Shown piece by piece: positions 6,976-20,033 of a DNA stretch of 51,069 bases. Source of the DNA: Desulfocapsaceae bacterium. GTDB lineage: Bacteria; Desulfobacterota; Desulfobulbia; Desulfobulbales; Desulfocapsaceae. Position numbers and translations under genes: made by a program. The stretch's first letter is position 1; every line of letters starts with the position of its first letter. The notes under the pieces are model-generated. The model had not been told where the DNA came from. It ran no database searches and saw only the letters and a list, made by a program, of their open reading frames with translations. The stretch spans positions 1 through 51,069 of the forward strand of contig JAUSAB010000085.1 in NCBI GenBank assembly GCA_030653035.1, read 5' to 3'.

Positions 6976-9018
6976 GTGCCTTTTACACCAACTCCCCTGG
7001 GACAACAATTTTTATTACGATATATGTTACCTCTTCTCAGATTTATACAGGGCCGGACGTTCCTCAGCCTCCTTCTCCTGGTTTCCATATACTCCATTGG
7101 CAACTATTTCATTATCAGACTGATTGTCTCTCCCCAACATCTTCAATTTGAACGTCACCTGGCGCAACTGGAAACGGAACGTCTTACGGAAGCACTACTG
7201 GGGGAAGAAGAGTCCTTGAAAACCATCGCCCATGACTGGTCGGCCTGGGATGACACCTATGACTTTGTCCAGAACGCAAACCCCGAATATATAACCTCCA
7301 ATCTTTCAGAGACCACATTTACAAATCTCAGATTAAATCTGCTCTCCATTTATCGTCTCGACGGCTCACTGGTATGGAGCCGGCTCCTCAACCTTGAAAC
7401 AGAAAAGGAAATGAACTTCCCTGAATTCCCGCCGACCGGCCTGGCCAGCACCCATCCCCTGCTGCGCCACCCCGGAGTCGACAGTTTAATCAACGGGATC
7501 ATCAAAACAGCTCACGGCCCACTCTTGATCGTATCCCAGCCCATCATCACCAGTGAAAACACCGGGCCCATTATCGGAACACTGATCTTTGGTCGCTTGC
7601 TCACCAAGGAGTTAATGGCAAAGTTCACAAAACAGACCAAGGTCAACTACCGACTCCTTGATCTCGATGAACAAGAGTCCCTTGCCGAAATTCCTGCCGA
7701 TATATCCGCACTTGGTCCGGAAACACCCTTTGTCTTTTATGATACAAAAAACAGAATCACCGCCTACAGCCTCCTCCCCGATTATCTGGGCAAACCCCAG
7801 TGGCTCCTTGAGGTGCATACCGATCGCCCGATCACCGAAAATTCCAGAGAATCCCTTCACTATGTCCTGTTCGTAAACATGGGCATCGGTCTCATTATCC
7901 TCCTTTTCCTCCTCCTCTTGTATAGAAATCAACTCAGGACTGCGACCTCGACAGTCCGGGACCTTATCGCTCACACCTTACCGTCTCAAACAAATGGACA
8001 ACCTGAAGGTCCACTGGCAATCGGCTTCAACACCGATGAGTTTTCCAGATTAGGTGATGAGCTCCGCTCCATGATCGCCAACTTTGAACAAACCACCGAA
8101 CAGCAAAAAAATATCATCAGCGAATACACGACATCACGTCGCCAGCTGAATTCCCAGATGGTCAAAGAGATCAAGAAGAGGCTGCAAATCGAAGAAGACC
8201 TGCACAAGATCCAGAGGGATCTTGAGAGACAGGTCGAAGAACGAACCCGGGAGCTCCGTCAGACCAATATTATCCTGCAGGACGAAATTATCGTCCGGAA
8301 AGAGAAGGAGGACGAACTGATAAACCACCGGAAGCGTCTTCGCGCCCTCTCATCGGAACTCATGCAAATAGAAGACAAAGAACGACGCCAGCTTGCCACT
8401 GACCTCCACGACCATGTAGGACAGTCCCTTTCGGCTGTGAAGATGTATGTGGATGGACTCATTGCCTCTGCATCGTACGATGTCGACCGGAAGAAACTTC
8501 AGCTCATAGCAAGTATCGTTGAACAAACTGTGCAGGATGTCCGCACACTCACCTTTGAGCTCAGTCCACCCATTTTATATGAGCTTGGCCTGAAGGCCGC
8601 GCTTGAATGGCTCGCTGAAGACTTTCAAAAAAAATACTCCCTCCAAATCAAGTCCAAATGTGATGAGTGCCCCAAATGCACCACCCCCGCCTTCCTGGCC
8701 CTTCTTTTCCGCACAATCCGTGAATTACTGATCAATGTCGTCCGTCATGCCCATGCTGATACGGCTGAGGTCGAAGTTCGATGTACAGGTAAAGGTGTCC
8801 GTATAACCGTCAGAGACTACGGCTGCGGCATGAAAGACGCGGATCAGAAAAACGAGGAAAACACCAACACAGGCTTTGGCCTGTTCAGTGTCCGAGAACG
8901 GGTAATCAATATCGGCGGCACAGTGGTGATTGATTCGCAAAAAGGTCAAGGAACAACCATAACCTTAACAATTCCAATTAAAGAGGCCTGCACGGAATCC
9001 GGCAGTGACCAAATATGA
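6976..9018 (+). CDS. CHASE4-domain sensor histidine kinase (NarL/DegS type)
   Basis: A 680-residue membrane sensor kinase. One transmembrane segment lies at about residues 28-48, followed by an extracytoplasmic CHASE4 domain with the hallmark HDWSAWDDTYDF (about 88-100). A second membrane segment sits at about 297-316, then a HAMP-like linker and coiled coil (about 320-455). The HisKA_3 box is ERRQLATDLHDHVGQS with the phospho-acceptor His near residue 478, and the HATPase domain shows RELLINVVRHA, VRDYGCGM and GFGLFSVRERV. This is the NarX/DegS class that pairs with LuxR-type regulators. The listed start is GTG with an agag site; an ATG at 7024 is the alternative. The stop overlaps the response-regulator start by 4 bases (ATGA). 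The ligand is unknown. Confidence 0.9.
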   Translation: MPFTPTPLGQQFLLRYMLPLLRFIQGRTFLSLLLLVSIYSIGNYFIIRLIVSPQHLQFERHLAQLETERLTEALLGEEESLKTIAHDWSAWDDTYDFVQNANPEYITSNLSETTFTNLRLNLLSIYRLDGSLVWSRLLNLETEKEMNFPEFPPTGLASTHPLLRHPGVDSLINGIIKTAHGPLLIVSQPIITSENTGPIIGTLIFGRLLTKELMAKFTKQTKVNYRLLDLDEQESLAEIPADISALGPETPFVFYDTKNRITAYSLLPDYLGKPQWLLEVHTDRPITENSRESLHYVLFVNMGIGLIILLFLLLLYRNQLRTATSTVRDLIAHTLPSQTNGQPEGPLAIGFNTDEFSRLGDELRSMIANFEQTTEQQKNIISEYTTSRRQLNSQMVKEIKKRLQIEEDLHKIQRDLERQVEERTRELRQTNIILQDEIIVRKEKEDELINHRKRLRALSSELMQIEDKERRQLATDLHDHVGQSLSAVKMYVDGLIASASYDVDRKKLQLIASIVEQTVQDVRTLTFELSPPILYELGLKAALEWLAEDFQKKYSLQIKSKCDECPKCTTPAFLALLFRTIRELLINVVRHAHADTAEVEVRCTGKGVRITVRDYGCGMKDADQKNEENTNTGFGLFSVRERVINIGGTVVIDSQKGQGTTITLTIPIKEACTESGSDQI

Positions 9019-9656
9019 CACTAAAAGTTATTGTGGTGGATGACCATAAAATTGTCAGGGACGGACTCTGTTCGCTCATTGAAGGACTCTTCGGTTACAC
9101 CATCGTCGGCTGGGCGGAAAACGGCAGACAGGCGATCGAGGTGGCACGCCAGGAAAAACCTGATATCATCATCATGGATGTCAGCATGCCGGAGATGAAC
9201 GGTATTGATGCCACCAGTTCGATCATGGAAGAGATGCCCTTTTGCAAGATCATTGTCCTGTCCATGCATTCGGATAAACGCTTCATTACCGGCGCTCTCC
9301 AGGCCGGGGCCTCAGGCTTCCTTCTCAAGGAGTGTGCCTTCCAGGAACTCAACCAGGCCCTTGACGCAGTTCAAAAGGGGCAGACCTATCTCAGCCCCAA
9401 AATTGCCGGTACGGTTGTCCACGATTACCGACGACGCCTGCTCTCCGAGGCCAAGGAAGAAAACCTCACAACCAGAGAACGTGAAGTGCTGCAGCTGATT
9501 GCCGAGGGTCGTTCGACCAAAGAAATTGCCGACAAACTCTTTGTCAGCATCAAGGCCATTGAAGGACGGCGGCGACGGATCATGGAGAAACTGCAGATCA
9601 GCACCGTGGCCGGACTAGTCAAATATGCCATCCGGGAAGGACTGACAGAATTGTAA
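9015..9656 (+). CDS. NarL/FixJ-family response regulator
   Basis: A 213-residue two-domain regulator. The receiver domain (1-120) has the acidic pair DD at 9-10, phospho-acceptor Asp55 in IIMDVSMPEMNG, Ser in VLSMHS and Lys in FLLKE. The LuxR-type helix-turn-helix (about 148-210) contains LTTREREVLQLIAEGRSTK and the recognition helix region VSIKAIEGRRRRIMEKL. It overlaps the CHASE4 kinase gene by 4 bases and is therefore its cognate partner. The next gene downstream, 357 bases away on the same strand, is the first multihaem cytochrome gene, so control of that cluster is a natural inference, but no binding site can be proven. Length is standard. Confidence 0.93.
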   Translation: MTLKVIVVDDHKIVRDGLCSLIEGLFGYTIVGWAENGRQAIEVARQEKPDIIIMDVSMPEMNGIDATSSIMEEMPFCKIIVLSMHSDKRFITGALQAGASGFLLKECAFQELNQALDAVQKGQTYLSPKIAGTVVHDYRRRLLSEAKEENLTTREREVLQLIAEGRSTKEIADKLFVSIKAIEGRRRRIMEKLQISTVAGLVKYAIREGLTEL

Positions 9657-10013: not shown

Positions 10014-10934
10014 ATGAAAAAAACAGCATGTATCTCCTTGTTTCTCCTCTTTGCCAGCAGCATCACACTGGCACATAGCGCCAGCCAACAGGATCTGTCT
10101 TTCATCAACCCCGACGTGACAACAGCAACCAATGTCCACTTCAACGAACTCTACTGCACGGAATGTCATCTGCAGCGACCAAACAAAGGTGATGCAATTC
10201 AGCTGAGATACAAAAACTACACACAGACCTGCAGGTGTCATGGATATACTCCCGACACTTACACCCACCCTGTTGACATACCACTCTCCCCCGAGAAAAA
10301 GGCTGCTATCCCGGCAGAGTTTCCCCTCACAGACGACAAGATCACCTGTGACACCTGCCACAACATGGCGCTGCAATGCGAACCGAAATACGAACTCAGG
10401 CACCACAATAAGGCGTTTTTACGAACGGACGCCTCCCTGGGCAGAACCTTCCTCTGTTTTCAATGCCACAAGGAAGACCAGTACAAGATGTTTGATCCTC
10501 ACAAACAGCTGGACGCCTCGGGAGCGATAAACCCGGAATCATGTCTCTATTGCCACGAAACCAAGCCGAATGAGCAAAACGCCACACTGGAATCGCGGAA
10601 AAACGGAGAAGATACTGTCCATCTTGTCGGTGATCTTGAAGTTCTCTGCTTGCGCTGTCACTATAACAAAGCCGGAAACCACCCCCTCAACAAAAACCAT
10701 CTCATCAAACCATCGGAGAAGGTGGTCTCCAGAATGTTGTGGTCCGAGAGAAATCTCTTGATCGTGCTGCCGTTGAATGACGAGGGGAAAATCACCTGCA
10801 TTACCTGCCACAACCCCCATGAACGGGGGGTTATTCCCACCGAAAAGGCTGCTGCTGCCGGTGCAAGTGACAAGGGCCGGCTGAGAAAATCATGGGGAGG
10901 GGGCAGCATCTGTGTAGTATGCCATAATATATAA
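10014..10934 (+). CDS. Periplasmic multihaem cytochrome c (7 CXXCH plus one CXCH)
   Basis: A 306-residue secreted protein with a signal peptide (MKKTACISLFLLFASSITLA). Seven CXXCH motifs are seen: CTECH (48-52), CDTCH, CFQCH, CLYCH, CLRCH, CITCH and CVVCH, the last four residues from the C-terminus. An eighth position reads C73-R-C75-H76, which lacks one spacer residue. The pairs CDTCH/CFQCH and CITCH/CVVCH, with an intervening basic-aliphatic segment (AFLRT; GRLRK), match the paired-CXXCH arrangement. It probably carries electrons in the periplasm. It is first in a cytochrome cluster and is 103 bases upstream of the 8-haem gene. No catalytic family is recognisable, so a pure electron-transfer role is inferred. 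Confidence 0.87.
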   Translation: MKKTACISLFLLFASSITLAHSASQQDLSFINPDVTTATNVHFNELYCTECHLQRPNKGDAIQLRYKNYTQTCRCHGYTPDTYTHPVDIPLSPEKKAAIPAEFPLTDDKITCDTCHNMALQCEPKYELRHHNKAFLRTDASLGRTFLCFQCHKEDQYKMFDPHKQLDASGAINPESCLYCHETKPNEQNATLESRKNGEDTVHLVGDLEVLCLRCHYNKAGNHPLNKNHLIKPSEKVVSRMLWSERNLLIVLPLNDEGKITCITCHNPHERGVIPTEKAAAAGASDKGRLRKSWGGGSICVVCHNI

Positions 10935-11037
10935 AAAATGAATAATCCCTTCACACCACTGCGAAATCGTTACAGTACGGTTGTTTACAGAATGTAGTGC
11001 ATCCTATAATAAACTGTTATAAAAAAAAGGAGAGGAG

Positions 11038-12099
11038 ATGAGCTTGAAGTCACGTTTCGGACCATTTGGTCACATTGGTATCTTGGTACTCCTTACCATC
11101 TACTTCATGCCCTCAAGTGTCTTTGGGGCAGATGCAGGCAACTGTCTTGTATGTCACAAGTTTCCAGGATTAAGCAGGGTCGGCGAGAATGGAGAGATGC
11201 GGCTTCTCTATGTCAATGAGGAAATTCACAACAAGGGCGTCCATGGCAGTGTCAAATGTGAGGGGTGTCATACAGATATAACCAAAATCCCCCATGACCC
11301 CGCCAAGCCGGTTGATTGCCTCGTGCTTTGCCATATCATAGAACCGACTTCGGAGCAGAAGTTCTCCCACAAGAGTGTTGCAACCTCTTTAGAAGACAGT
11401 GTCCACAGCAAGAAGGACAAGGACGGCAAGGAAAAACCATTCAGCGAAGATATGCCCACCTGCAAGGACTGTCATGACGACCCAATGTTCAGGCCCCTGG
11501 CATTTGTTAAGAAAGTCAGGCCCGGTGTCGCCGAGGATGCCCTGGGGCGCTGTCGTGTCTGTCATTCCAAAGAAGCATTTATCGACAAGTTTTACAATCA
11601 CATCACCACCAGACTGCATAAGAGCAGAAGCCCCCTTAACATTGCAGAGGCGTGCGCTCGCTGCCATGATGACCCGAAACTGGTCGCCAGGCACAATCTT
11701 TCGAGGGCGGCAGGTTCCTATGGCCAGACCTTTCACGGTAAGGCCGCCAACCTTCTCGACGAATCGGTTCCAGATTGCCTGGACTGTCATGTGCCCAAGG
11801 GAAAATCCGTACACCAGATGTATAAGAACGAGGACTCCCGGGCCACAACCCATAAAGAAAACAGAGGACAAATCTGCAACTCCGTGGACTGTCATCCAGG
11901 GGCCTCCAAAAAATTCAGTAACTACCAGGTCCATGCCGAATTCGACAAGGGAAAAAACCCGGTCATATACTGGTTTACCACGTTTTTCATCATTCTCACC
12001 GGCGGCACCCTGCTGCCTCTGATGGCGATCCTTTTTCTTGACCTGCTTCGCCGCCTGTTTCCCAATGCATCCTTTAGACGGAGGAAAGAGAAACAATGA
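11038..12099 (+). CDS. Membrane-anchored octahaem cytochrome c
   Basis: A 353-residue protein with an N-terminal export signal (cleavage likely after SSVFGA, near 31) and a C-terminal membrane anchor (about 308-335, FFIILTGGTLLPLMAILFL) followed by a basic tail. Haem motifs in order: CLVCH (36-40), CEGCH, CLVLCH (CX3CH), CKDCH, CRVCH, CARCH, CLDCH and CNSVDCH (CX4CH). That makes eight sites, two with non-standard spacing; CX4CH is known from cytochrome c3. The haem domain should face the periplasm. The ATG has an excellent ggagagg site. The stop overlaps the cytochrome b start by 4 bases, so the two subunits are likely made together. No nitrite or tetrathionate reductase active-site lysine motif is evident. 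Confidence 0.88.
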   Translation: MSLKSRFGPFGHIGILVLLTIYFMPSSVFGADAGNCLVCHKFPGLSRVGENGEMRLLYVNEEIHNKGVHGSVKCEGCHTDITKIPHDPAKPVDCLVLCHIIEPTSEQKFSHKSVATSLEDSVHSKKDKDGKEKPFSEDMPTCKDCHDDPMFRPLAFVKKVRPGVAEDALGRCRVCHSKEAFIDKFYNHITTRLHKSRSPLNIAEACARCHDDPKLVARHNLSRAAGSYGQTFHGKAANLLDESVPDCLDCHVPKGKSVHQMYKNEDSRATTHKENRGQICNSVDCHPGASKKFSNYQVHAEFDKGKNPVIYWFTTFFIILTGGTLLPLMAILFLDLLRRLFPNASFRRRKEKQ

Positions 12100-13001
12100 A
12101 ACGATATCCAACCATAAAAATCGAAAACGGGAAGAAATACTTTTTCAGATTCGACCTGGACCAAAGAATCCAGCACATCATTCTGGCGGCAACGGTCATT
12201 ATTCTGGTGTTGACCGGGATGCCTCTCAAGTTCAGTGAGACAAGCTGGGCCCCGTATCTCAATACCTTCTTCGGTGGCAGCAAGATGTCACCGATGATAC
12301 ACAAAGTGACCGGAGCCATCATGCTCATCCTTTTTGCTTACCACGTCATCCGTGTGGTCAGCCAAATCGTGAGCAAACAGATTTTCCCCCTCAAAAAAGA
12401 GGGAAAAATGAATATTGGCGAAGTTACCACCATACTCATCAAGCAGCCGATGATCCCCAACCTCAAGGACGCCAAGGACATCATAGGACTGATGAAATAT
12501 CTCCTCTATTTTACCACTGTCCGACCTGATGGAGATGAATTCACCTGGAAGGAAAAATTTGATTACTGGGCGCCGTTCTGGGGTATGTTTGTCATCGGTC
12601 TTACCGGGCTTGTTATCTGGAACAAGGTGCTTGCCACCCAGATCATACCAGGCGAGCTCATCAACCTCTGCCTGATCGCCCACAGCGACGAGGCGCTGCT
12701 GGCCGCCCTCTTTCTCTTCATCTGGCACTGGTATAATGTCCACTTCTCCACATCCGTCTTCCCCATGGGCACGGTCTTTTTGACTGGTTATCTCTCAGAG
12801 GAGTTGATGGTGGAAGAACACTATGAACATTATGTCAGGGTCATGACCAAAGAGGGGTTGGCGCATGAAATCCTCCCACCCCATGGTGGTCACAAGCCAT
12901 TCTGTGATAAGCCGTTGCCGGACAAACCTGACAGCCCGTCAACCACTACCGCCGCCGAACAGCCCAATGATACCCTGCAGCAGGGAGGACTCAGCTCATG
13001 A
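12096..13001 (+). CDS. Cytochrome b subunit (FdnI/thiosulfate reductase-like, cytochrome b561 fold)
   Basis: A 301-residue integral membrane cytochrome b. Four membrane helices can be seen (about 27-46, 68-90, 162-182, 200-220), with His ligands in RIQHIIL, MIHKVTG, FAYHVIRV and IAHSDEALLAALFLFIWHW. This is the di-haem fold of formate dehydrogenase gamma, PhsC and Ni/Fe-hydrogenase b subunits, which exchange electrons between quinones and periplasmic redox proteins. The hydrophilic C-terminal tail is Pro/Ser/Thr-rich. Four-base ATGA overlaps with the octahaem gene before it and the tri-haem gene after it argue for one complex. No molybdopterin or Fe-S catalytic subunit is nearby, which suggests a dedicated quinol:cytochrome c module. 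Confidence 0.87.
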   Translation: MKRYPTIKIENGKKYFFRFDLDQRIQHIILAATVIILVLTGMPLKFSETSWAPYLNTFFGGSKMSPMIHKVTGAIMLILFAYHVIRVVSQIVSKQIFPLKKEGKMNIGEVTTILIKQPMIPNLKDAKDIIGLMKYLLYFTTVRPDGDEFTWKEKFDYWAPFWGMFVIGLTGLVIWNKVLATQIIPGELINLCLIAHSDEALLAALFLFIWHWYNVHFSTSVFPMGTVFLTGYLSEELMVEEHYEHYVRVMTKEGLAHEILPPHGGHKPFCDKPLPDKPDSPSTTTAAEQPNDTLQQGGLSS

Positions 13002-13936
13002 AATGCTTTCTTACCAAACTCTACATCCTCGCCTTTATGGCGCTGGTCGTTTTTTTCGGTGTGCTCATCTGGAAATTGACCTTTGCCCATCTTATTCATG
13101 AATACCACGCCAGAAAAGGACATGTGTCCATCGAGCATACCGGAGAACCAGACAAAAAAGACATCGGCAAGCAGACATTTGAAACGATGATCCTTGAAAG
13201 CGAGGATAGGGTGAAACACTACCTCGGCTATCGAGTGCTCGAAGAGCAGCGAATAAAGGGTCATTTCCACCATATCGATTTTGATATAGGCCCGGACAAC
13301 AGGTCCTACTGCCGATCCTGTCACGGTGACATGCCGCACGACAAAGTCAAGGATGTTCGCGCTTTTTTGAATATGCACGCCTTCTTTATCGCCTGTCAAA
13401 CCTGCCATGTCAAACTTGAAGAAGGTGAAAAGACAAACGTCTACAAATGGTATGACCGCAAAACTGGGGATATTGTTGACAGTCCGGTTAATGGGGCTCC
13501 GCCGGGGACCTATAACGCCAAGATCATCCCCTTTGTTCGGGAGAACGGCCAACTCGTCCGCATCGACAGCGAAGACAAGATACAATTCGCCACTGAATAC
13601 AAGAAAAATGAAAAGGTCCTGAGCGAAGGCCAAAAATCCATGGCAAAGAAACTTATCCATAAGTTTATCAGCAAGGTCCCGGTGACCTGTGAAAGTTGCC
13701 ATACCAACAACAACCCGACCCTCCCGCTTGCGGAGCTTGGCTATCCCAAGACACGGATTGACTCCATCACCAGTACAGAGGTGGTGGGAATGATAAAAAA
13801 ATATACCGAATTCCATATGCCGAAGATGTTGAGCCCCGGTGAGAAACCGGCCACGCCGCCACAGCAGCCACCAGTACCACTACTATCACCAGTACCACCA
13901 GCAGCGCCACCAGCAGCGCCACCAGCACAACACTAA
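12998..13936 (+). CDS. Membrane-anchored tri-haem cytochrome c
   Basis: A 312-residue protein with an N-terminal uncleaved-type anchor (LYILAFMALVVFFGVLIW, about 8-26) and three CXXCH motifs: CRSCH near 107, CQTCH near 132 and CESCH near 229. Extra histidines (HFHH near 88, HDK, HAF) could serve as distal ligands. The C-terminal ~35 residues are a Pro/Ala-rich tail (PPAAPPAAPPAQH) encoded by a short tandem repeat. The topology resembles NapC/NrfH-type quinol-oxidising anchors, but the motif number is lower than the usual four or more. It overlaps cytochrome b by four bases and is followed 28 bases later by the NHL-repeat gene. The likely role is relaying electrons from the b subunit to soluble partners. 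Confidence 0.82.
   Translation: MKCFLTKLYILAFMALVVFFGVLIWKLTFAHLIHEYHARKGHVSIEHTGEPDKKDIGKQTFETMILESEDRVKHYLGYRVLEEQRIKGHFHHIDFDIGPDNRSYCRSCHGDMPHDKVKDVRAFLNMHAFFIACQTCHVKLEEGEKTNVYKWYDRKTGDIVDSPVNGAPPGTYNAKIIPFVRENGQLVRIDSEDKIQFATEYKKNEKVLSEGQKSMAKKLIHKFISKVPVTCESCHTNNNPTLPLAELGYPKTRIDSITSTEVVGMIKKYTEFHMPKMLSPGEKPATPPQQPPVPLLSPVPPAAPPAAPPAQH
13895..13930 (+). repeat. 12-bp tandem repeat in the tri-haem gene tail
   Basis: The unit ccaccagcagcg is present twice in direct succession (13895-13906, 13907-13918) and begins a third time at 13919. It encodes the PPAAPPAAPPA tail. Being a multiple of three, slippage would change tail length without shifting the frame. It also makes the opposite and +1 frames look open. 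Confidence 0.75.
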
Positions 13937-13964
13937 CCGCCTGGAACAAGGGGATAAAGATATT

Positions 13965-14930
13965 ATGTTTGGATGGTGTACAATCCTCCCGGGGTGCAGA
14001 TGGCAGCGGAGCATATTTCCCGTTGCCATCTGCATCTGGCTTACTTTTTGTGTCTCGACAGCCCATGGAGTCGAACTGACCATGGCGAGACACCTCTTTG
14101 ATATCAAGGATACCTTTAACCAGCCAAGTGATGTGGCCGTGGCCAAGAATGGTACCATCTATGTGGTGGACGGTGTCAATGGCAGGATCCAGGCATTCTC
14201 TCCATCGGGAAGCTATCTTTTCACCATCGGCCGCCCAGGGACCGGGCCCGGTGAATTTGCCTTTCCCCTGGGGATGGATATTGACGAATCAGGCATGGTC
14301 TATGTCGCCGATTCCAGAAACCAGAGGGTCCAGATATTGACCGCCAAGGGTGCTTTTATCTCTGAGATCCCGGTTCCGGACCATAACGGTAAAAAGGCAG
14401 ACCCGACGGATGTGGCCGTGGATGATTCCGGCAAGTGGTTCTTTGTGGCAGACAATAATAATCACCGTATTCTCAAATTTGATATTGCTTCAAAAAAGCT
14501 TATCAACAGCTATGGCAAACCCGGGGAGGAAAAGCGGGAATTCCGTTATCCCTTTCTCATGCATCTGCATCATAACAAAGACCTCTACGTCGTCGATGTG
14601 ATCAACACCAGGGTCCAGGTGGTGAACACAGAGGGCAAGTTTGTTACCTTTGTCGGGGGATGGGGCGTGGAAAAGGGACATTTTTTTCGGCCCAAGGGGG
14701 TCACTGTTGATAAAAACGGCCTCGCCTATGTCAGCGACAGTTACATGGGAGTGGTTCAGCTCTTTAATAATACAGGAACGTTTCATTCTGTCCTTGGTGA
14801 TCCTGTAAGCGGTGGGGTGAGAAAATTCACCACCCCGGTGGGACTCTTTGTTGACGACTCAATGCGCCTCTATGTAGTGGAAATGCTTCCAGGGCGGCTC
14901 AGTGTCTTCAGCCTGGATAATGCGCAATAA
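13965..14930 (+). CDS. Exported NHL-repeat beta-propeller protein
   Basis: A 321-residue protein with a signal sequence (SIFPVAICIWLTFCVSTAHG, residues about 15-34) and five to six NHL repeats, for example QPSDVAVAKNGTIYVVDGVN, FPLGMDIDESGMVYVADSRN, DPTDVAVDDSGKWFFVADNN and RPKGVTVDKNGLAYVSDSYM. NHL repeats form beta-propellers used for protein or ligand binding. The ATG at 13965 is preferred: it gives a signal peptide and has an aagggg site. The longer frame from 13839 merely reads through the previous gene's CAG/CAC repeat. NHL proteins occur inside several multihaem cytochrome clusters of metal-reducing bacteria, where they may scaffold the cytochromes; that role is inferred here. There are no haem motifs. 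Confidence 0.85.
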   Translation: MFGWCTILPGCRWQRSIFPVAICIWLTFCVSTAHGVELTMARHLFDIKDTFNQPSDVAVAKNGTIYVVDGVNGRIQAFSPSGSYLFTIGRPGTGPGEFAFPLGMDIDESGMVYVADSRNQRVQILTAKGAFISEIPVPDHNGKKADPTDVAVDDSGKWFFVADNNNHRILKFDIASKKLINSYGKPGEEKREFRYPFLMHLHHNKDLYVVDVINTRVQVVNTEGKFVTFVGGWGVEKGHFFRPKGVTVDKNGLAYVSDSYMGVVQLFNNTGTFHSVLGDPVSGGVRKFTTPVGLFVDDSMRLYVVEMLPGRLSVFSLDNAQ

Positions 14931-14962
14931 CAGTGGATCACCAAACAAAAACAGCCTGCCAT

Positions 14963-17191
14963 ATGAACAGATTCTCCGCCTGCACCCTTTTTCTCCTTCT
15001 CAGCATTATACTTTCGTGCCATACGTCCGCTCTCGCCGAGCAGACACCACCCCGCAACCCGAATTCGGCCAAGGAATGTGCGATCTGTCACTACCGATGG
15101 ATCGACACTTTTTTCATTGATGGCAAGGGAACAGACCTGGTTCCCTATGAGAAGACAACCAAGGCCGTCGCCGAAACCGAAATGTGCTTTTCCTGCCATG
15201 ACGGCAGTGTGGCGGACTCCAGGGGAAAGGTCTACAGCGACCATCGCCATCCCATCAACAAACCGCCGCCCCCCGGTATGGAAATCCCGGCCATCTTCCC
15301 CCTGGACGACAAGGGAAACATGCAGTGCTTCACCTGCCATACCGCCCACGGCGTATCCAGCGAGATGGGGATAGAGAGGGCGGTCTTTGTCCGCACCCCC
15401 AACAATAACTCTTCCATGTGCATAATGTGTCACAAGGGCAAGGAAGGCGGCCCGGCTGTCGGCAACCATCCCCTTGGCACCATAAAACGTCCAATCCCCG
15501 AGAAGCTCCTCCGTCGAGGTGGTCTCAAGGGATCTGATAAGAATCAAATCATCTGCCAGACCTGCCATACGGTCCATGGTTCACCGTATGACAATTTCCT
15601 CGTGGACAACAACCGCGATTCGGCCCAACTCTGTCTCGACTGCCATGAAGAGAAGGGCGGCCTCTTGAACACCGGACATGACCTGCGGCGCACGGCAGCA
15701 AATTCAAAAAACAGCAAGGGCCAGACCCCGGAAAAGTCAGGGATATGCGGCGCCTGCCACCTGGTACATGGGGCAGAGAAAGTGGCCCTCTGGGCAAGAG
15801 AGCTTCCTAGCGACAGCAAAAACAGGACCCAGGACCTCTGTATCAGTTGTCATAACAGTCAGGGGCTGGCCCCTGAAAAGCTCCTCAAGGGGTACGCACA
15901 TCCCGTCAATATCTCGCTCAAAGACAAGGGGATGAATCCTGACTTGCCAGTCTATGATCTCAAGGGAAAGCGGGTCCCGTTCAAATCCCAGGAGGCACTC
16001 TTCACCTGCCCCACCTGCCATGACCCGCACCAGAGAGGAACAGACAGACAGGCGAAGATGACGCCTCCCCGTTCCAGTTTTCTTCGGGTAGAGGATGGTC
16101 AGCCGGAGAAGCTGTGCAGGCAGTGCCATGTGCAACAAGCCCGCATTGTCGGGAGCGATCATGATCTGCGGGGTACAGGACCCGCAACAAAAAATGAGAA
16201 GGGCCAGTCACCCATAGAGTCTGACGTGTGTGGCGTCTGCCATCTGGTGCACGGAGCGCAGACCGAGAAGTTGTGGGCCAGAAAGGTCCCTGAAAAGAGC
16301 ACCTTCCCGGCTCAGGATCTCTGCCTTACCTGTCACAAGAGCAAGGGGGAGGCCGGTAAAAAGGTGATCGGGGATCATTCGCATCCCGTTGATATTGATC
16401 CTGCCCAAAAGGGGATCAATACCAAGCTCCCCCTCTATGACAAGCAGGGAAAACGTGCCGAGAACGGAGTGATCGCCTGCCTCACCTGCCATAATCCCCA
16501 TCAATGGAATCCGGAAAAGCCAGGAGATCATGGCGGTAACAATCCAGAAGGCAACGCCCAAAACAGCTTTCTCCGGCTTGAGGTCGCACCAAGGCCCGTC
16601 TTGTGTGGTAATTGCCATGGGACCAAGGCATATGTGGAAAAGACCGACCACGATCTCACCGTAACCGCTCCGACAGCAAAAAATATCCTGGGCCAGACTG
16701 CAGCAGAGTCCGGAGTCTGCGGCGCCTGCCATATCATCCATAATGGAAAAAATAAGATACGGCTCTGGGGGCGTGACTACGGCGTTGGTAAAGGTGTCAT
16801 GGACAGGATGTGTAACAGCTGCCACAGTGAGGCAGGGTCGGGTAGCAGCAAGGTGCCCAAGGTATCCACTCACCCGGAAAAACAACTGATTGCCAATCCG
16901 GGAAGAAACATCAAGGGCAAGGAAAACTATTTTCCCCTGTTTGACAGGGCCACTGGGGCCTCCATTACCGTTGGCGATATAGCTTGCGCCTCATGCCATG
17001 ATGTCCATCAATGGGACCCGAAACAACCATTACCGGGCACAGGCAATAATCCCGAGGGCAAGGCCACCAACAGCTTTTTACGGATGCAGACCTACAACAT
17101 GATATGCAAGGATTGTCACGGCCTTGATTCGCTGTTCCGATTTAAATACTACCATGACAGTAAAAAAAGAAAACCCGTACCCGCCCCATAA
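14963..17191 (+). CDS. 18-haem secreted cytochrome c (paired CXXCH repeats)
   Basis: A 742-residue exported protein (signal MNRFSACTLFLLLSIILSC, ending near ALA) with 18 CXXCH motifs spread along the whole chain: CAICH, CFSCH, CFTCH, CIMCH, CQTCH, CLDCH, CGACH, CISCH, CPTCH, CRQCH, CGVCH, CLTCH, CLTCH, CGNCH, CGACH, CNSCH, CASCH, CKDCH. A roughly 170-residue module (CGxCHxxHG..LW, then CxxCH, HPV, CxxCHxPHQ, SFLR, CxxCH, HDL) recurs three times, so the protein arose by internal duplication. It most likely acts as a long electron wire in the periplasm or at the surface. An in-frame GTG at 14933 would add ten residues; the ATG gives a cleaner signal peptide, though neither start has a strong Shine-Dalgarno. 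It is last in the cluster. A cysteine in LSCHTSALA raises a lipoprotein possibility, weakly. Confidence 0.9.
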   Translation: MNRFSACTLFLLLSIILSCHTSALAEQTPPRNPNSAKECAICHYRWIDTFFIDGKGTDLVPYEKTTKAVAETEMCFSCHDGSVADSRGKVYSDHRHPINKPPPPGMEIPAIFPLDDKGNMQCFTCHTAHGVSSEMGIERAVFVRTPNNNSSMCIMCHKGKEGGPAVGNHPLGTIKRPIPEKLLRRGGLKGSDKNQIICQTCHTVHGSPYDNFLVDNNRDSAQLCLDCHEEKGGLLNTGHDLRRTAANSKNSKGQTPEKSGICGACHLVHGAEKVALWARELPSDSKNRTQDLCISCHNSQGLAPEKLLKGYAHPVNISLKDKGMNPDLPVYDLKGKRVPFKSQEALFTCPTCHDPHQRGTDRQAKMTPPRSSFLRVEDGQPEKLCRQCHVQQARIVGSDHDLRGTGPATKNEKGQSPIESDVCGVCHLVHGAQTEKLWARKVPEKSTFPAQDLCLTCHKSKGEAGKKVIGDHSHPVDIDPAQKGINTKLPLYDKQGKRAENGVIACLTCHNPHQWNPEKPGDHGGNNPEGNAQNSFLRLEVAPRPVLCGNCHGTKAYVEKTDHDLTVTAPTAKNILGQTAAESGVCGACHIIHNGKNKIRLWGRDYGVGKGVMDRMCNSCHSEAGSGSSKVPKVSTHPEKQLIANPGRNIKGKENYFPLFDRATGASITVGDIACASCHDVHQWDPKQPLPGTGNNPEGKATNSFLRMQTYNMICKDCHGLDSLFRFKYYHDSKKRKPVPAP

Positions 17192-17238
17192 GATACGCCA
17201 GGAACAGTTTTTAGATGGGCAGAGAAAAACCGTGATAA

Positions 17239-17286
17239 AAAGATTCTGAGCTTCGCCGGTCTGGCAAAGTACGCAGACTGGCCGGC
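17239..17286 (-). terminator. Possible terminator after the hybrid kinase gene
   Basis: Between the convergent 18-haem and kinase genes, 17255-17263 and 17274-17282 form a 9-bp stem with one G-T wobble. On the minus strand it is followed, after about ten bases, by tctttttatc. This is a weak intrinsic terminator for the kinase transcript; for the plus strand no T-run follows. Confidence 0.35.
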
Positions 17287-17316
17287 ACCACCACAAGGCA
17301 AGAAAAGCCCCCCTGG

Positions 17317-19941
17317 CTATGCGCCATTGAGAACCTTGCGGACGGTTGTGGCCAGCTCTTGCATGGAAAACGGTTTCTGGACGAAGGCCCCCCCCGCCTC
17401 CAGCACACCGTGATGCGCAATGATATCGGCAGTATAACCCGACATGAACAGAACTTTGATCCGCGGCAAAGAAGACAGCAACCTATTGGCCAGATCACGG
17501 CCATTCATCTCAGGCATGATGACATCCGACATCAACAGCCCTATTTCTCCAGCATGCTGTTGAGCCAGAAGCATGGCCTGATCGGGAGAGTCTGCTGCCA
17601 GCACAGTGTAACCAAGCCCCTCGAGCATCGCCGTCGTCATTCGCAAAATAGCAGGTTCATCCTCCACCAGCAGAATTGTCTCCTGACCACCAATGGCCGG
17701 CCCTGCAGGTTGTTCCGTCTGGACCTGCGCACCATTCCCCACATACCGAGGAAGATAGATCGTAAATGTCGTTCCCTGTCCGGGTTCGCTGTAGACATTG
17801 ACAAAACCGTTGTTCTGCTTGACAACACCATAAACCGTGGCCAGACCAAGGCCGGTGCCTTTGCCGACACCCTTGGTCGTAAAAAACGGTTCAAAGATAT
17901 GGCCCACTATTTCCTTGTCCATGCCACAGCCATTATCACTTATGGCAAGACGCACATAATCACCTGGATTAAAACCCAGATGGTTGGCGCAATAGGCCTC
18001 ATCAAAAACGCGATGGCCAGTCTCGATGGTGATTGTACCCACGTCATCAATGGCATCCCGGGCATTGATACAGAGATTGGCCAGAAGCTGATCAAACTGG
18101 GATGGATCCATCCTGACCGGCCACAGTCCCACCTGCGGCCACCAGACAAGACTGATATCCTCACCGATCAACCGTTGCAACATGGTGAGCATCCCGGCCA
18201 CAACCTCATTCAGATCCAGCGCTTTGGGGGCAACGATCTGCTTGCGGGCAAAGGCCAGCAGTTGCCGGGTTAGATCGGCGGACCGTTCAGCCGCCTTGCT
18301 GATCTCTATAAGATGAGCATTGAGCGGTGAAGCGGGATCCACTTGGCGCAGGGCAAGTTCCGTATGACCCATGATCACCCCCAGCATGTTATTAAAATCA
18401 TGGGCCACGCCGCCCGCCAATCGACCCACCGATTCCATCTTTTGGGCCTGCTGGAACTGGATCTCAAGTTTATCCTTCTCCTCCTCGGCCAGCTTGCGTT
18501 CGGTAATATCAACAAGGTCGCCGCGCCAACCCAGAAAACAGCCGGTTTCATCGTGGATCTCGGCACAGATATGGCTAACCCAACGAACCTCACCCGTCCT
18601 GGTGATGATTCGAAACTCCAGAGCCAGCAGTTTACCGGTCTCATCCACGGGGTGCACATGATGCTCCCAGCGCTCCCGGTCTTCGGGGTGGAAAAGCTCA
18701 TCCAGCAGGCCAGGATCGGCAAGAAATTTCTCCTCCGAATATCCGGTAAACTGGCGGCAGTTCTGAGAAACAAAGATCATTTTTTTTTCTGGCCCACGCC
18801 AGAAGATAAACTCGAAGCTAAACTCGGTGACGGTACGATAAATTTCCTCACTCTGCCGCAATTCCTCCTGCTGCCGGTCGAGTTTTCCGAGCATGACATT
18901 AAAGGCCTTGGCCAGAGTAGCGGTCTCATCTCCACCGGCGGCATGAAACAGCCGCGCCTCTCCCCTTTTGGCGTCAATCTCTTCCACATGCCGGGTAAAG
19001 GCCAGAAGTGAGTTGGTCAGATATTGACTGAAAAAACGGATAACCACAAAGGCCGCCAGGATGATGACCAGCATCCAGGCCAAAAGGATCTCAGCGGCAC
19101 GGATGAGCGGGGCATAAGCCTCAGCCTGGGGATAATTGGCGGCCAGGAGCCAGTTTTTCACCCGCAGACGCTTAAAGGAGGTGAGCATAGGTACCCCCTC
19201 GCGGCTGTGATTTTCATCGGTGCCCTCAAAACCCTGAAGCGCCCGGTCGAGCAAAGGGTTTTTCCCTGCAGGTATTTTTTTTAAGATCCTGTCCTTGTCC
19301 GGGTGCATAACCATGACCCTGTCCATCGTGGTCAGGTAAAGATAGCCGCTCTTGCCGATCTTTTTTTCCGAGAGTTTTCCCAGGATATTGGGCCTCATAA
19401 GATCAAGACTGCCGCCGAGAATGGCGATGATCTTACCCTCCTGGTTAAAGACCGGCGCGGTCATCATGATCACCGGATGTTTATGGGGTTGCGAAGAGAC
19501 ATAGGGATCGGAAATCACCGGGACAGAAGTGGCCAGGGTGTCTTTGATACAGGGACGGAAAGAAAAATCCAGTCCGCGGCGATTGGGGACAAATGGGGAT
19601 TCGGCAATGATCCGGCCTTCAGGGGAATAAAGAAAGATATGATTGTCAAAGGCGTCGTGCAGGCCGGGACGGTGATCAAGAAAATCCTGGGCCGTGTCTC
19701 CCGAAACAAGGGCCTCGGTGGAGACGATCGTGGCGGCAGAGACGAGCTGGGCATGGGCCAGAGACAACTTGTCATCCAGGGAACCCGCGATCTCAGTGAG
19801 CAGCAATTGCTGTTCCGTAGCAATAATTCCTTTGAGCTGCTGCTTGAACATACTGAGGAACAGAAAAGAAGTCGCCCCCATCAGACACAGGAGAACTAAG
19901 GAGATGGCAAGAGTCAGCCGGTTTTTCATGGTTATCTTCAT
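17317..19941 (-). CDS. Hybrid sensor histidine kinase (dCache-HAMP-PAS-HisKA-HATPase-REC)
   Basis: An 874-residue membrane kinase. An N-terminal membrane helix is followed by an extracytoplasmic double-Cache-type sensor (about 35-270; [51 protein letters not shown]). A second helix (about 278-300), HAMP, and one PAS domain with its C-terminal [12 protein letters not shown] come next. The H-box [19 protein letters not shown], the N/G boxes ([28 protein letters not shown]) and a C-terminal receiver with [13 protein letters not shown] complete it. This architecture senses small periplasmic ligands. The start at 19941 has an agggg site; an ATG at 19977 preceded by aggagg is possible. It faces the cytochrome cluster convergently. 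No separate output regulator lies beside it. Confidence 0.9.
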
Positions 19942-20033
19942 GAACAGAGCCCCTGATGAGCAGGGAAAACGCCCCATCCATGAGGCGCCTCCTGTACGTT
20001 ACAAACCGGGAAATGTTCAGAAGCACCCACAGA

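Follow-up and report, generated by a model that had tools for sequence, protein, structure and literature searches.

What do six consecutive haem-rich genes do for a Desulfocapsaceae bacterium? We analysed a window that makes up one entire contig of 51,069 bases, in which these genes, here g1 to g6 and together called the module, lie in a row. In the portions of the published text that we searched (PMC12307469, PMC11434368, PMC7726332, PMC12133095, PMC9012536, PMC4911364, PMC10734462, PMC12442390, PMC5566968, PMC5371394, PMC9769857, PMC12016550, PMC13264449, PMC5539420 and PMC10553843), wiring from the quinone pool to an outer-membrane conduit is known in few systems, namely CymA, ImcH, CbcL and CbcBA. 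We consider it quite probable, judging from sequence, that the six genes encode the inner-membrane portion of a chain for extracellular electron transfer, which continues to a conduit of the type encoded on another contig of this genome, C77. In our best reading the module would act in extracellular electron transfer as a quinone:cytochrome c oxidoreductase, and it probably links membrane quinones to protein wires that cross the outer membrane.

A preliminary description of this DNA had reported six consecutive plus-strand genes with about 36 standard or expanded haem motifs (7, 8, 0, 3, 0 and 18) and one CXCH site, two short overlaps, an FdnI-fold cytochrome b and an NHL-propeller protein, all of which we recovered. 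CXXCH motifs numbered 7, 6, 0, 3, 0 and 18 from g1 to g6, 34 in sum, with two expanded motifs (CX3CH/CX4CH) in g2 and the single CXCH, a CRCH, in g1. When residues were shuffled within each protein (n=500), CXXCH occurred 0.2 times on average and twice at most. The intergenic gaps were 103, −4, −4, 28 and 32 bases, g2/g3 and g3/g4 thus sharing four-base overlaps. Hydrophobic segments fit export of g1, g5 and g6 by putative signal peptides, and g2 is predicted to be exported with a C-terminal anchor; they also fit four membrane segments in g3 and an N-terminal anchor in g4. The open reading frame (ORF) of g5 opens with GTG at 13839, and its putative signal peptide was obtained from the ATG at 13965; that of g6 opens with GTG at 14933, and its start was taken as 14963. 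It is likely that g1 is a soluble periplasmic carrier and possible that g6 is a periplasmic wire.

g3 scored above the curated cutoff for PF01292 (38.6 versus 30.1 bits) and below that of the NCBIfam formate-DH-gamma family (49.8 versus 115.85 bits), and a profile of 24 g3 sequences matched FdnI in the PDB (1kqf_C, E 3.5e-17). Histidines H27, H69, H196 and H211 were invariant in the 24 sequences and aligned with H18, H57, H155 and H169 of FdnI, which we take to be its haem b ligands. Gene fusions were found in relatives: g3+g4 in L029, L030, L039, L040, L072 and others, g2+g3 in L153 and L074 (L153 was also read as L074), and g2+g3+g4 in a single chain of 921 residues with 11 motifs in L153 and of 889 residues in L073. 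Among 80 loci from named genomes, 12 encoded a fused protein, 11 of them g3+g4 and the other, L153, one g2+g3 and one triple fusion. Since g2, g3 and g4 are fused naturally, these proteins very likely form one complex. The model of the 921-residue fusion (72 aligned rows) showed long helices at the six expected places, and FdnI 1kqf_C was its sole solved match with E < 0.001; with a predicted local distance difference test score (pLDDT) of 70.6 and a predicted template modelling score (pTM) of 0.46 it was too uncertain for haem distances. The g6 model (pLDDT 75.4, pTM 0.69) had no significant match among solved structures, the top one being the OmcE nanowire (E 0.054).

We propose that a quinone or quinol would exchange electrons at the dihaem cytochrome b g3, from which they would reach the periplasm-facing haem domains of g2 (eight haems) and g4 (three haems). 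They would next move to the periplasmic cytochromes g6 and g1, aided by the NHL protein g5, and arrive at the outer-membrane barrel/cytochrome conduit encoded on C77. The haem motifs, the conserved gene order, the fusions and the adjacency to and co-occurrence with a barrel operon were observed directly, and from them we infer the subunit contacts, the quinone chemistry, the electron path and any electron flow.

The module was found to be conserved as a unit. A g3 search over 97 genomes at a threshold of 1e-10 gave matches in 31; eight of these besides that of the window, all of the same family, matched g3 at 62–94% identity. The order g1-g2-g3-g4-g5-g6 on one strand was retained in all eight family loci fetched (L021–L028), g5 of L027 being recovered by tblastn. 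Together with the fusions and the FdnI-aligned histidines, this bears out the earlier proposal of a dedicated module between quinone and periplasmic haem proteins. Upstream of the module in six of the eight relatives (L021–L026) lay a kinase homologue 65–80% identical to that of the window and a response regulator 91–92% identical; tblastn did not find either in the L027 and L028 stretches. The same genome holds a second, diverged copy on contig C110 (L040 6280–13946), in which g3 and g4 form one fusion, g6 has 22 haems and a g1-like gene of 11 haems comes last.

A g2 search over 395 genomes of the phylum at 1e-15 gave 65 matching genomes, many of them weakly, and 20 stretches were fetched from 18 of these. 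g2, g3 and g4 were present together in 16 of the 20, accompanied by g5 in 15 of the 16, and tblastn served to recover the g2–g5 run of L071; the g4 match of L086 was weak and contained one stop. g4 was not seen in L075, L088, L089 and L090, where L075 and L090 stop at a contig edge and L088 and L089 carry distant g2-g3-like pairs. Named genomes were scanned with a 12-sequence g4 alignment, and the best 80 of 179 relatives were mapped with up to 10 kb on each side. In these loci g2, g3 and g4 were neighbours on one strand in 74 by ORFs and in 77 with tblastn, which recovered the triad in L111, L151 and L164, the L111 match holding one stop. Of the other three loci, L125 and L131 run into contig ends, and in L139 g4 was present and g3 was not found. 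By ORF profiles g5 and g6 were each present in 53 of the 80, g1 in 42 and all six genes in 36, and g6 homologues in relatives had 16–38 haems. Record titles of the carriers include Desulfocapsaceae, Desulfobulbaceae, Nitrospirota, Gammaproteobacteria (Sedimenticola, Thiodiazotropha), Gallionellaceae, Sulfurimicrobium, Polarisedimenticolaceae and Deferribacteres; individual taxon names may be wrong, since nearly all of these are metagenome bins.

A g4 tree (114 rows) put tandem copies from one locus into different deep clades, for example in L106 and L142, the finer points being unsafe because some long branches meet. As observations on gene arrangement, L099–L101, L105 and L106 have two tandem g2-g3-g4 triads from different deep g4 clades, each followed by an NHL gene and g6 (18, then 20 haems), and in L128 (10800–14256) a lone triad sits beside three 3-haem Cytochrome_C7-type proteins and one 6-haem protein, with similar neighbours in L127, L129 and L140. 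That the tandem copies are kept as versions for different potentials is speculation.

A candidate link from the module to the outer membrane is an operon found directly downstream of it in four relatives (G012, G011, G006 and G037). It encodes a tetrahaem cytochrome, an NHL lipoprotein, a pentahaem lipoprotein, a putative barrel protein of about 690 residues whose last residue is aromatic, and another NHL lipoprotein, the lipoproteins having been assigned by eye. In L175 and L176 the operon continues with three cytochromes (12, 15 and 8 motifs) and with TPR and AhpC/TSA-TPR proteins. In Desulfosediminicola flagellatus (L157), titled as an isolate, a C110-type module lies within the barrel operon. 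The genome of the window has this operon on C77, where its barrel is 62–65% identical to that of G012, with its two NHL proteins and an AhpC/TSA-TPR-like neighbour. The barrel profile matched 10 of the 80 named loci (L091, L093, L094, L116, L125, L135, L142, L145, L157 and L159), five of them titled Gammaproteobacteria. A second kind of conduit was seen in L153 and L166, where the module is followed by a decahaem cytochrome above the GSU2203-family cutoff and a 612-residue protein with MtrB_PioB above cutoff; profiles built from these two also matched L154, making three loci with an MtrA/MtrB-like pair. In L153 the gene of about 250 residues before g2 encodes an FGE-sulfatase domain protein.

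The preliminary description had stated that no molybdoenzyme or porin was nearby. The first part stood, as the Pfam scan found no molybdoenzyme among nine proteins around the six genes. The second holds for this contig only, because the window is a single contig in which not every ORF was scanned; a porin-like operon is present on C77 and near the module in relatives, so the module would be more than the quinol-to-periplasm step first described. Separately, upstream of the module copy in L029 (1547–5250) are genes for a 794-residue 9-haem protein with an MtrC/MtrF-like domain and for a 440-residue haem-free protein without a Pfam match, perhaps another conduit. Proteins of 633–736 residues with one CXXCH in L107–L109 were considered as porins and rejected: they matched no porin profile and their sequence looks sensor-kinase-like.

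We found that module and barrel also occur together across genomes. Among 93 family genomes, g4 (1e-10) was present in 15 and a barrel in 14, of which 10 were at 52% identity or more, and g4 and a close barrel coincided in 9 (Fisher p 4.9e-8 for close barrels and 7.4e-6 for all 14, kinship ignored). Within the genus of the window g4 and the close barrel were present in the same 6 of 17 genomes, two others having weak barrel matches. Module and barrel are on separate contigs in G000 and G016, and 24 kb lies between them in G002. A DnaA+BamA species tree held 14 of the 17 genus members, sequence being lacking for G012, G010 and G007; in it G000 stood among three non-carriers (estimated completeness 94–97%) and the other four placed carriers clustered with full support. 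As the carriers do not form one clade, module and barrel would have appeared or disappeared jointly on two or more occasions, absence being never certain in draft genomes.

Several results weigh against a chain that runs from this module to such a conduit. The protein of about 690 residues had no match in Pfam or NCBIfam and is a putative beta-barrel by its sequence character. In the window contig itself the barrel operon is not adjacent to the module. g4 occurred without a close barrel in 6 of the 15 g4-bearing family genomes, and g4 was not detected in one family genome with a close barrel or in four more with weak barrel matches (25–33%). Neither conduit type was detected by profile in 67 of the 80 named loci, many of which are short contigs. 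Finally, 22 of the 80 had g2-g3-g4 with no NHL gene within reach, so the parts are separable.

The direction of electron flow may be either. dsrA is present in the genome of the window (575 bits versus a cutoff of 393), and inflow feeding sulfur metabolism is therefore possible, as is outflow to an extracellular acceptor. The module could thus export electrons to such an acceptor or take them up into the quinone pool of a dsrA-bearing organism. By analogy with FdnI, the uptake direction would build proton-motive force.

The CRCH of g1 occupies the position of the eighth CXXCH of distant g1 homologues in 9 of 9 close sequences (the window and L021–L028), and the histidine after it is retained in the aligned close g1 sequences. 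Seven-CXXCH g1 proteins in the named loci had CRCH in 13 of 13 readable cases (some genomes being shared with the L021–L028 set), and 28 more distant g1 proteins of these loci had at least eight CXXCH and no CXCH. CRCH is possibly an unusual haem c site. A literature text search found no paper with CXCH, heme and cytochrome c together as whole words.

The features are listed in Table 1. Its position suggests that the CHASE4 kinase probably regulates the module. Promoter-like sites were about as frequent as expected by chance (8 versus a shuffled mean of 7.3), terminator-like sites numbered 18 versus 10.6 in shuffled sequence (s.d. 3.1), and the plus-strand interval 17191–17500 had none of the latter. 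Because the contig carries dnaA, it may be close to the replication origin.

Table 1. Coordinates of the module, its neighbours in the window and the barrel operon of the same genome.
Feature	Position	Strand	Basis
CHASE4 sensor histidine kinase	6976–9018	+	Pfam CHASE4, HisKA_3, HATPase_c
LuxR/NarL-type response regulator	9015–9656	+	Pfam Response_reg, GerE
g1, exported cytochrome c, 7 CXXCH and one CRCH	10014–10934	+	motif count, Pfam scan
g2, 8-haem cytochrome c (6 CXXCH, 1 CX3CH, 1 CX4CH), predicted C-terminal membrane anchor	11038–12099	+	
g3, FdnI-type cytochrome b, four hydrophobic segments, no haem c motif	12096–13001	+	
g4, 3-haem cytochrome c, predicted N-terminal anchor, marker of the module	12998–13936	+	
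g5, exported NHL propeller protein, no haem motif	13965–14930	+	NHL 93.5 bits
g6, exported 18-haem cytochrome c	14963–17191	+	Paired_CXXCH_1 132 bits
Hybrid histidine kinase (dCache, PAS, receiver domains), convergent to g6	17317–19977	−	Pfam scan
dnaA	28206–29570	−	
Barrel/cytochrome/NHL operon	L173 364–13673, own genome, contig C77		4-, 5-, 8-, 12- and 15-motif cytochromes

A broader proposal is tentative, and we would give it somewhat less than an even chance: g2-g3-g4 may be an unnamed, widespread quinone gateway that lineages plug into unrelated conduits (a Uet-like barrel operon or an MtrA/MtrB-like pair), often as tandem, anciently diverged copies perhaps for different potentials, with the g1 CRCH of one clade a possible new haem c attachment. 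In many uncultured bacteria of the sulfur and iron cycles the module is a candidate for the quinone-to-conduit step, and the g4 signature, approximately CxxCHGxxPH...RxxxNMH...CxxCH, offers a means of finding it in sequence. D. flagellatus IMCC35005 is a cultured carrier with the module and the barrel genes in one run, so this candidate role is testable there.

Other explanations were weighed against extracellular electron transfer. The set could be no more than the Geobacter CbcBA (Cbc5) of a different phylum: orthologous, with extra neighbours, and acting as a low-potential menaquinol:cytochrome c oxidoreductase. The text consulted describes CbcB as a cytochrome b of PF01292 and CbcA as a heptahaem cytochrome c bound to the membrane, resembling g3 and g2 (PMC7726332), and transfer of CbcBA into Seep-SRB2 is reported (PMC10553843); the g2-g3-like pairs of L088 and L089 point the same way. 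We nevertheless regard this orthology as unlikely, as no Geobacter-titled record was among the best 80 of the 179 g4-marked loci. The second explanation, to which we give similarly little credence, is that the set forms a respiratory reductase in the periplasm with no outside link, in which one of the multihaem proteins is catalytic and the substrate is soluble, for instance a sulfur oxyanion. Titles mark many of the named carriers as sulfur bacteria, and g4 resembles octahaem tetrathionate reductase over about 58 residues (1sp3, E 2.7e-8). However, this similarity is local and concerns part of one small subunit, the set contains no octahaem reductase of known type, and the repeated association with barrel operons would be left unexplained. 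g4 itself was rejected as an octahaem tetrathionate reductase (TIGR04315 36 bits versus a cutoff of 375). No catalytic subunit recurred in the mapped module neighbourhoods, in which not every neighbour was identified. Periplasmic electron storage or redox balancing with no dedicated partner, conduit proximity reflecting the frequent clustering of cytochrome genes in a genome rich in haem motif matches (298 plus and 351 minus, versus 68 and 82 for the reversed pattern), is very improbable, given that the same barrel family recurs beside divergent module copies in different phyla and that within the genus the presence of module and barrel changes in step even where they lie on separate contigs (G000 and G016).

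We also compared the module with known systems, within the published text named at the outset. The earlier statement that the gene set matches no named system holds there; figures and supplements were outside the search, and the set may be drawn unnamed somewhere. PCC3, whose description lists a porin, cytochromes of very large size both outside the cell and in the periplasm, and a membrane protein of five helices bearing WX3HX13H motifs (PMC5566968), is like the module in its very large periplasmic cytochrome and proposed dihaem-b membrane protein. Identity with it was rejected: there is no porin among the six genes, and g3 is FdnI-type with four hydrophobic segments, not five-helix. An operon of partner bacteria of anaerobic methanotrophic archaea (ANME), present also in Desulfurivibrio, is described as four soluble proteins, a beta-propeller, 16-haem and 26-haem cytochromes and an isomerase (PMC5539420), and likewise places a propeller beside very large periplasmic cytochromes. 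By that description it too was rejected, as the scanned neighbours include no isomerase and the core of four soluble proteins differs. The Uet conduit of Tenderiales and Gallionella comprises tetrahaem, undecahaem and NHL proteins, a barrel, an isomerase and three trihaems in the text available (PMC10734462). By motif count and size, compared by description only, the C77-type operon is like it in having a tetrahaem, an approximately 11-haem cytochrome, NHL proteins and a barrel-like protein; unlike it, the operon has an extra pentahaem lipoprotein, and the three trihaems and the isomerase were not seen in L173. The six window genes themselves lie outside that parts list.

g3 has the fold and the four aligned histidines of FdnI, the cytochrome b556 subunit of formate dehydrogenase N, but the module lacks a formate dehydrogenase catalytic or iron-sulfur subunit and its partners are multihaem c cytochromes. 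g3 was also 32–37% identical to the cytochrome b part of four fused proteins of 617–690 residues with 9–11 CXXCH (L031–L034), which we take to be CbcL-like. CbcL-type proteins share the same broad cytochrome b family; they are one chain, whereas in the window g2 and g3 are separate and a 3-haem subunit is present, although g2-g3 fusions are found in relatives. CbcBA/Cbc5 (cbcEDCBA) of Geobacter sulfurreducens, as far as the published text describes it, likewise combines a PF01292 cytochrome b with a membrane-bound multihaem cytochrome c and is a proposed menaquinol:cytochrome c oxidoreductase for extracellular respiration, the kind of role that we propose for the module. Unlike CbcBA, the module has its cytochrome b flanked by an 8-haem cytochrome c and a fusible 3-haem subunit, with NHL and 18-haem genes following. 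The reported Cbc5 content is the c-type CbcA, CbcC and CbcD, the b-type CbcB and the membrane protein CbcE, whereas the window has four c-type cytochromes, one b-type and one NHL protein and no CbcE-like membrane protein. Our best reading is that the module works like CbcBA, compared here by description and with no Geobacter sequence, and like CbcL, and close versions of it seem to be present in several phyla, apparently without a name.

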